A DNA stretch of 64,000 nt, taken from positions 25,124-89,123 of the forward strand of contig CADCTD010000002.1 in the NCBI GenBank assembly GCA_902805545.1, read 5' to 3'. Under the pieces are notes generated by a model, which was given only the letters and a program-made list of their open reading frames with translations, searched no databases and was not told the DNA's origin. Shown here piece by piece: positions 2,671-46,946 of this stretch; the first letter of the stretch is position 1; each line of letters opens with the position of its first letter. The DNA is from an uncultured Craurococcus sp. GTDB lineage: Bacteria > Pseudomonadota > Alphaproteobacteria > Acetobacterales > Acetobacteraceae. A program made the position numbers and the translations under genes.

Positions 2671-3444
2671 TTACGTGCCTGCCGCCAAGCCCGGCGTGCG
2701 GGGGACCAGGGTGCGGGTGCGGTAGCGTGCGACCTGCTGGCCGGCGGGGACCTTTTGGAAGACCAGGAAATAGCTGTGGTTCTTCCGCGCATGCACCTGG
2801 CGGAGCAGCCGCGCCACCCCCGGCCGGTTGGGGCGCATCAGCACGAAGAGGTCGCGGGCATAGAAGCCGAGCTCGGCGAGGCCGGTGACGATCTGCACAT
2901 GGGTCAGCTCCTGCCGGTTGGCGCTGACCTCGTCCTGGCACTTGACGATGAGGATGCCGTGGTCGCGCAGCACCCGCCGCGCCTCGGCGGCCGCGGCCAG
3001 GTAGAGGTCGAGCACCGCCTGGTGCCAGCGCCCGCCCCCCGGCGCCTCGCCCTCGCCGCCGGCGGCATAGTAGGTGCGGAGGCCAGCATGGCTGCCGAGC
3101 CCGCCGCGCGTCGCCGATTTCGGGCGGAGCAGGCCCTCCATGTAGGGCGGGTCGAGCACCAGCGCGTCGAGGCTGCCATCGGTGTGGGGCAGCGCGCGGC
3201 AATCGGTCCCCGTGGCGAGGTCGGAGGCCAGCACGCGGTAAAGCCCCTCCGGCACCTGCTGCCAGAAAACGCCCTGGCCATAGGTGACATCGGCGATGAC
3301 CGCCCCTGCCGGGACGTGAAGGGCCAGGATCTGCGGGAAGAGGGCGGCATTGCCCCCGGCATGGGCGGAGAGCACCACATCCGCCGTCGCGCTGCCGCCC
3401 TGCACCCGGCGGGCGCGGGGCGGGGCCTCCGCCGCGTCACTCAT
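2671..3444 (-). CDS. Amino-type DNA methyltransferase (DPPY motif), orphan
   Basis: Motif IV DPPY ([11 protein letters not shown]) and motif I-like [10 protein letters not shown]; 8-nt overlap with the aat 3' end. Confidence 0.75.
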
Positions 3445-45212: not shown

Positions 45213-46166
45213 TCAGGCCGGCGGAAAATCCGCCCGCTGCCCCAAGGACGCTCCGGCGCCGCCGCTTGTGACAGCGCTCCGCATAATTCCATGCAGTTTG
45301 TCGGGATTGCGGAGGAGGTAGAGCGCCTGGATGCGCCCCTCCGCCACCTCGGCCCCCAGCACGCCCCAGGGCGCACCGTCGAGGAAGATGGCGAGGCCCG
45401 GCTGGCCGTTGACGGCAATGGGCCGCGCCCCGAGCCCCGGCGGCAAGCGCCGGCCCACGCCAAGGGCGAAGCGCGCCACCTTGTCGCCGCCGAGGATCGG
45501 GTTGAGGGCCGCCTGCGCCTTGCCCCCGCCATCGGTCAGCAGCCGCGCATCCTTGGCCAGCACCCGCAGAAGCCTCGCCGGATCGCCCGACCGGGCCGCC
45601 GCAAGGAAGGCCGTGAGCAGCCGTCGGTGCATCGCCGGGCTCGCCGTACGCCGCGCCGGCGCCGGGTCCCGCAGCCGCTCCCGCGCCCGGTGGAGAAGCT
45701 GCCGGCAGGCCGCCTCGGACCGGCCGAGTGCGGCGGAAATCGTACCGTATTCCGCCCCGAAGGCGTCCCGCAGCAGCAGCGCCGCCCGCTCCGGCGCGGA
45801 GAGCCGCTCCAGCAGCAGCAGGAAGGCGATGGAGAGGTCGGCCGCCCGGTCGAGGCGCCGGTCGGGCGCCGTGCTCTCGGGCGGCGCCGGCACCTCCTCC
45901 AGCCAGGGCTCCGGCAGCCAGGGGCCGGGATAGTCGCGCCGCGCCGACGCGCCTCGCCGCAGCCGGTCGAGGCAAAGCCGCGTCGCCACCGTCACCAGCC
46001 AGGCGGCGGGGTCGGCGATGCCCGCCCGGTCCGCAGCCTACCAGCGGATCCAGGCTTCCTGCACCACCTCCTCGGCCTCGCCCGTCGCGCCGAGCATGCG
46101 ATAGGCAAGGGCCAGCAGCCGCGGCCGATGCGCCAGGAAAGGGTCGGGCCCGGCCAGCTGCTGCAT
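45213..46166 (-). pseudogene. ECF41-type (SigJ-like) RNA polymerase sigma factor with SnoaL-like tail, interrupted by in-frame TAG at 46038-46040
   Basis: N-part FLAHRPRLLALAYRMLGATGEAEEVVQEAWIRW*; same-frame continuation AADRAGIADPAAWLVTVATRLCLDRLRR...WLPEP...DGGGK...NPDKL. Confidence 0.8.
45247..45273 (-). promoter_or_regulatory. ECF41-type promoter TGTCACA-N16-CGTC for the carboxymuconolactone decarboxylase gene
   Basis: Minus strand TGTCACA (45267-45273), CGTC (45247-45250), spacer 16 nt; about 50 nt upstream of the ATG at 45196. Confidence 0.65.
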
Positions 46167-46196
46167 CCGTCGCGCTCCCCTGCCAGAGTGGCCAGC

Positions 46197-46946
46197 ATGC
46201 GCCGATTCCTCTCCCTGCTGAACCTCCTCCTCCCCGCCCTCCTGCCCTTCGCCGGGGTGATGGCGAGCCTCATCGGCATGGGCCATCCGCTCTGGGCGAT
46301 GCAGAGCATCCGCACGCCGGTGGTGCCCGCGCCCTACGCCTTCTCGATCTGGGGCGCGATCTTCGCACTCGCCCTCGCCTGGGGCTTCTGGCAGATGCGG
46401 CCCGCGCAGCGCGCCGACCCGCGACTCGCCCGGCTGCGCGGCCCGGCGGCGGCTGCCTTCGCGCTGATGCTGCTCTGGATGGTGGTGGCGCAGCTCACGC
46501 CCAATGGCTGGCACCTGCTGGCGATCATCCTCGCCCTGCTGGCCGCGGCGCTGGTGGCCTTCCTTCGCGCGGCCGGGCAACGGATGGACGGGGCGGGCTG
46601 GCGCTGGGTCGCCCGGCCGCTGTTCGGCTTGCTGGCCGGCTGGGTCTCGGCCGCCAGCATCGTCAACCTCTCCGGCGCGGCGGCGACCGCGGGCGTGACC
46701 TGGGGCGGCATGGACCCGGTGCTGGTGGCGATGGGGCTGATCCTGCTTGCCGCCTGGATCGGCAGCGCCGTGCTGCGGCGCGGCCGGGGCGACCTCTGGT
46801 ATGCCGGCGCGCTGCTCTGGGCGCTGCTGGCCGTCGTCGTCGCCAATGCGGCGCTGCCGGCGGTCGCCGTCACCGCCGGCCTCGGCATGCTGATCGTCGG
46901 CGTGGCGGCGTGGCTAGCCCGGATACGCCACGAACGGCCCGTGTAG
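46197..46946 (+). CDS. Multi-TM membrane protein, possibly TspO/MBR-related
   Basis: VVPAPYAFSIWGAIFALALAWGFWQ and several Trp-rich TM helices. Confidence 0.6.
   Translation: MRRFLSLLNLLLPALLPFAGVMASLIGMGHPLWAMQSIRTPVVPAPYAFSIWGAIFALALAWGFWQMRPAQRADPRLARLRGPAAAAFALMLLWMVVAQLTPNGWHLLAIILALLAAALVAFLRAAGQRMDGAGWRWVARPLFGLLAGWVSAASIVNLSGAAATAGVTWGGMDPVLVAMGLILLAAWIGSAVLRRGRGDLWYAGALLWALLAVVVANAALPAVAVTAGLGMLIVGVAAWLARIRHERPV

Follow-up and report, generated by a model that had tools for sequence, protein, structure and literature searches.

An ECF41-type sigma factor gene carries an in-frame amber codon

The window, by which we mean the whole 64,000-nucleotide stretch of DNA that was analysed, contains on its minus strand a reading frame (46166-45213) that codes for 42 amino acids, runs into a TAG codon at 46040-46038, and then continues for another 274 amino acids up to the stop codon ending at 45213. 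Apart from this TAG the frame is open throughout. The initial annotation had described a single in-frame amber codon in an ECF41 gene, followed by an open frame, and translation together with matches to Pfam and to the NCBIfam SigJ model bears out both points. The part ahead of the TAG (46166-46041) comprises the ATG start codon and the first half of sigma region 2, corresponding to positions 3-34 of the 71 positions of Pfam Sigma70_r2 (1.5e-8); its 42-residue product is MQQLAGPDPFLAHRPRLLALAYRMLGATGEAEEVVQEAWIRW, and the start ATGCAGCA is common to four Belnapia orthologues. The remainder of the frame (46037-45213) holds the end of region 2, a linker, region 4 (Sigma70_r4_2, 1.7e-11), a C-terminal extension and the terminal stop. 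With the TAG entered as X, the entire frame scored 292.7 bits against the NCBIfam model SigJ PRK09636 (cut-off 271) and aligned over positions 8-290 of 293, and we therefore regard it as one gene and not as a chance frame.

The gene resembles the ECF41 sigma factors (Ecf41Bli, Ecf41Rsp and M. tuberculosis SigJ) in several respects. Sigma regions 2 and 4 are present without region 3, and the linker between them contains WLPEP (45920-45906), which has been named as a characteristic ECF41 motif (PMC3426412). Further downstream follows the large C-terminal SnoaL-like extension with the conserved motifs DGGGK (45533-45519) and NPDKL (45308-45294), so that all three motifs on the minus strand are intact, as had been noted before. 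In Pfam, this extension gave only a sub-threshold match, to DUF4440. The intact B. mucosa orthologue aligned nearly end to end with SigJ of PDB entry 5xe7 (1.3e-46). The window copy is unlike the ECF41 members in that it is cut by the TAG within region 2, at codon 43, and should yield no active, full-length sigma factor; judged by its sequence, it is classed as a pseudogene that descends from ECF41.

On the other side of the sigma gene, an ORF for a membrane protein without a Pfam family starts near 46197 on the plus strand. The two divergent genes thus start only about 30 bp apart (46166-46199), and with so short a gap the sigma gene's own promoter must sit within or overlap the neighbouring ORF.

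A likely ECF41-type promoter precedes an intact CMD gene

Sixteen bases past the sigma stop, also on the minus strand, starts a gene for a 147-residue carboxymuconolactone decarboxylase (CMD)/AhpD-like protein (45196-44753; Pfam CMD PF02627, 4.9e-21; AhpD core domain) with the CxxC motif CAYC, and this gene is intact in all five genomes compared. The published consensus of ECF41 target promoters is TGTCACA-16+/-1-CGTC (PMC3426412). An exact match, TGTCACA-N16-CGTC, is found on the minus strand at 45273-45247; it lies within the 3' end of the sigma reading frame, 50 bp ahead of the start codon of CMD. ECF41 systems are marked by an adjacent gene for a CMD with CxxC, an oxidoreductase or an epimerase, and the likeness to them extends in this way to the neighbourhood of the gene. 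The motif occurs once in the window, where the chance expectation is 0.39 even with one mismatch allowed. Its -35 core GTCACA is found with the same spacing and at the same place in four of four Belnapia orthologues, with variation at the motif's outermost bases, the first and the last. Because the match is exact and unique in the window and its core is kept in the orthologues, the CMD gene is the likely target of the sigma factor; that ECF41 would regulate CMD we infer from what has been published on B. licheniformis and R. sphaeroides.

Among the genomes compared, the amber codon is private to that of the window

The genome from which the window comes (G000; 4.53 Mb, 192 contigs, 97% complete) groups in the same genus as the named Belnapia species. 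A comparison with sister strains had been proposed by the initial annotation, and we carried it out on the four Belnapia orthologues at the same genomic place. The codon at the amber site is CAG in B. mucosa, B. arida and B. rosea and CAA in B. moabensis, i.e., glutamine in every case and TAG in none, and among the genomes compared TAG at 46040-46038 is found only in that of the window. The stop would most simply be explained by one C-to-T change from CAG private to this genome, in agreement with the CAG to TAG transition suggested earlier. The accompanying statement that Q is usual in RWQAADR held in part: glutamine is indeed the Belnapia residue (three CAG, one CAA), but its context there reads RWQGAE or RWQGAG, and across ECF41 at large the site is variable (Q, H, D, S, I, A and others) in a tally of matched loci only, for which the automated pattern was too strict and missed many loci.

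In pairwise comparisons of the window copy with the orthologues, dN/dS was 0.22-0.29, which indicates that selection acted on the frame for most of the divergence and that the lesion is young. A recent loss is likewise suggested by the motifs, the promoter and the CMD gene, all of them still intact. Among private substitutions in the sigma gene, the ratio of nonsynonymous to synonymous changes was 14:9 in the window copy versus 20:46 for B. mucosa and B. moabensis taken together (p 0.013, Fisher test). The neighbouring CMD gene, used as a control, showed the same tendency in the window lineage (5:3), and relaxed constraint as a reading of the raised ratio in the sigma gene was consequently set aside.

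Relatives carry other lesions in the same sigma gene

In the B. arida orthologue, an 8-bp insertion shifts the frame after LRRGAA; the sequence at the insertion (L020, about 2965-3005), GTGGCGCGGCAGCGCGGCGGCGCGGC, is GC-rich and resembles a repeat. A further Belnapia genome, G006, has a deletion at the orthologous locus (within G006:C1:3588556-3591675) that takes out the promoter, the start of the CMD gene and most of the sigma gene. Region 2 (EEVVQEA) there runs, out of frame, into the middle of CMD, and both genes are destroyed. What is left of the sequence in G006 is close to that of B. arida, and the lesions of the two may share an older loss; a cautious count would put the independent inactivations, including that of the window, at at least two. 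The lesions in B. arida and G006 point to a sigma gene that has repeatedly been dispensable in the genus. With the glutamine codons of the sisters and the single C-to-T change, these different lesions lend weight to the initial proposal of a very recent nonsense mutation in the window copy. G006 also has a different ECF41-CMD module at another locus (L007).

The sigma gene of B. moabensis has a CAG to TAG change of its own, a few bases after the -10 of the CMD promoter (L019, just downstream of 3749). We considered whether this was the same stop as that of the window and rejected the idea from its position in the C-terminal tail, past NPDKL, where it is probably harmless. In a survey of the family, an ECF41 match at E 1e-40 was obtained in 65 of 398 genomes and, among the matches listed, only that of the window contained an internal stop, in a search that under-counts frameshifted or deleted copies. 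No second ECF41 gene to replace the broken copy was found in the window genome.

Explanations of the amber codon

We consider it highly probable (roughly 85%) that in the window lineage an ECF41-group sigma factor was recently inactivated by a nonsense mutation, a single C-to-T change that made CAG into TAG and Gln43 into a stop. Translation would then end after 42 residues, and the truncated product would be without half of region 2, the part of the protein for core RNA polymerase binding, and without all of region 4, so that no working sigma factor would be made. The CMD gene would be deprived of ECF41-dependent induction and left with basal or read-through transcription.

An assembly error at this base, with the true gene intact, is unlikely. 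Such an error would fit a single-base difference in a 192-contig draft, and the target promoter, the motifs and the downstream gene are all intact, but what differs is a substituted base in the middle of a contig and outside any homopolymer. Moreover, relatives carry other lesions that break this gene, and TAG interrupts none of the 208 other domain matches inspected in the genome (122 ABC_tran, i.e., ABC-transporter, and 86 TctC matches), so nonsense errors are rare in this assembly. The same count bears on readthrough or suppression of the amber codon, which the initial annotation had also put forward and by which some full-length sigma factor would be made through a suppressor tRNA or a leaky context. 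This we regard as very unlikely. Past the stop, the frame stays open and its sequence is well conserved, the amber position tolerates several residues in ECF41, and there is a precedent in the codon-33 amber allele of E. coli K-12 rpoS, a sigma gene that carries a TAG (PMC2700278). However, when we followed the suggestion to search for an amber suppressor tRNA and ran 38 stretches with all 40 tRNA hits through ARAGORN, no CUA anticodon was present among the 40 tRNA genes found, a set that is incomplete (no Ile tRNA and no Gly-GCC were found), and a suppressor tRNA was rejected on this basis. Genome-wide reassignment of TAG was rejected because release factor 1 is intact and TAG is absent from the two large families (0/208; one TGA was found inside these matches). 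A programmed readthrough structure was rejected as well, the RNA fold around the TAG being unremarkable (z -1.2 versus shuffles), and the TAG is not conserved in relatives. Taken together, the tRNA set, the intact release factor, the uninterrupted families and the ordinary fold argue against both genome-wide and local suppression; readthrough of the stop is unsupported by these data, and what we see hence appears to be ordinary gene decay.

Two further readings concern what might still be made from the gene. Near-cognate misreading by a Gln tRNA could in principle turn the amber codon into a low-level translational throttle, with traces of full-length ECF41 serving the intact CMD promoter, an arrangement that we find scarcely credible. 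Equally improbable in our view is a restart of translation inside the gene that would give a C-terminal piece (region 4 plus extension) with a function of its own. There are in-frame GTG codons past the stop and a 260-aa ORF from 45995, but the piece would be without most of region 2, on which binding to core RNA polymerase and recognition of the -10 element depend, and no examined relative has such a separate gene, the frameshifted B. arida copy excepted.

The recent nonsense mutation would make this locus a small, clear case of a regulator that disappears ahead of its target, with a seemingly dead sigma gene next to a surviving promoter and target gene; at least one other lineage among its relatives has lost the same sigma gene through a different lesion. 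The finding is real but ordinary, and it leaves general views unchanged; as a natural knockout, the window lineage could possibly be used to ask what ECF41-CMD modules do in Acetobacteraceae. The early TAG in an otherwise intact sigma factor gene recalls the rpoS amber allele of E. coli K-12. Codon 33 of RpoS, however, precedes region 2, whereas the stop in the window lies inside region 2 and a suppressor tRNA was not found. The rpoS codon-33 amber can be rescued by internal restart and in suppressor strains.

Belnapia relatives with good assemblies have genomes of 6.0-6.9 Mb; the window genome, with 4.5 Mb at an estimated completeness of 97%, is smaller than these by a quarter to a third.
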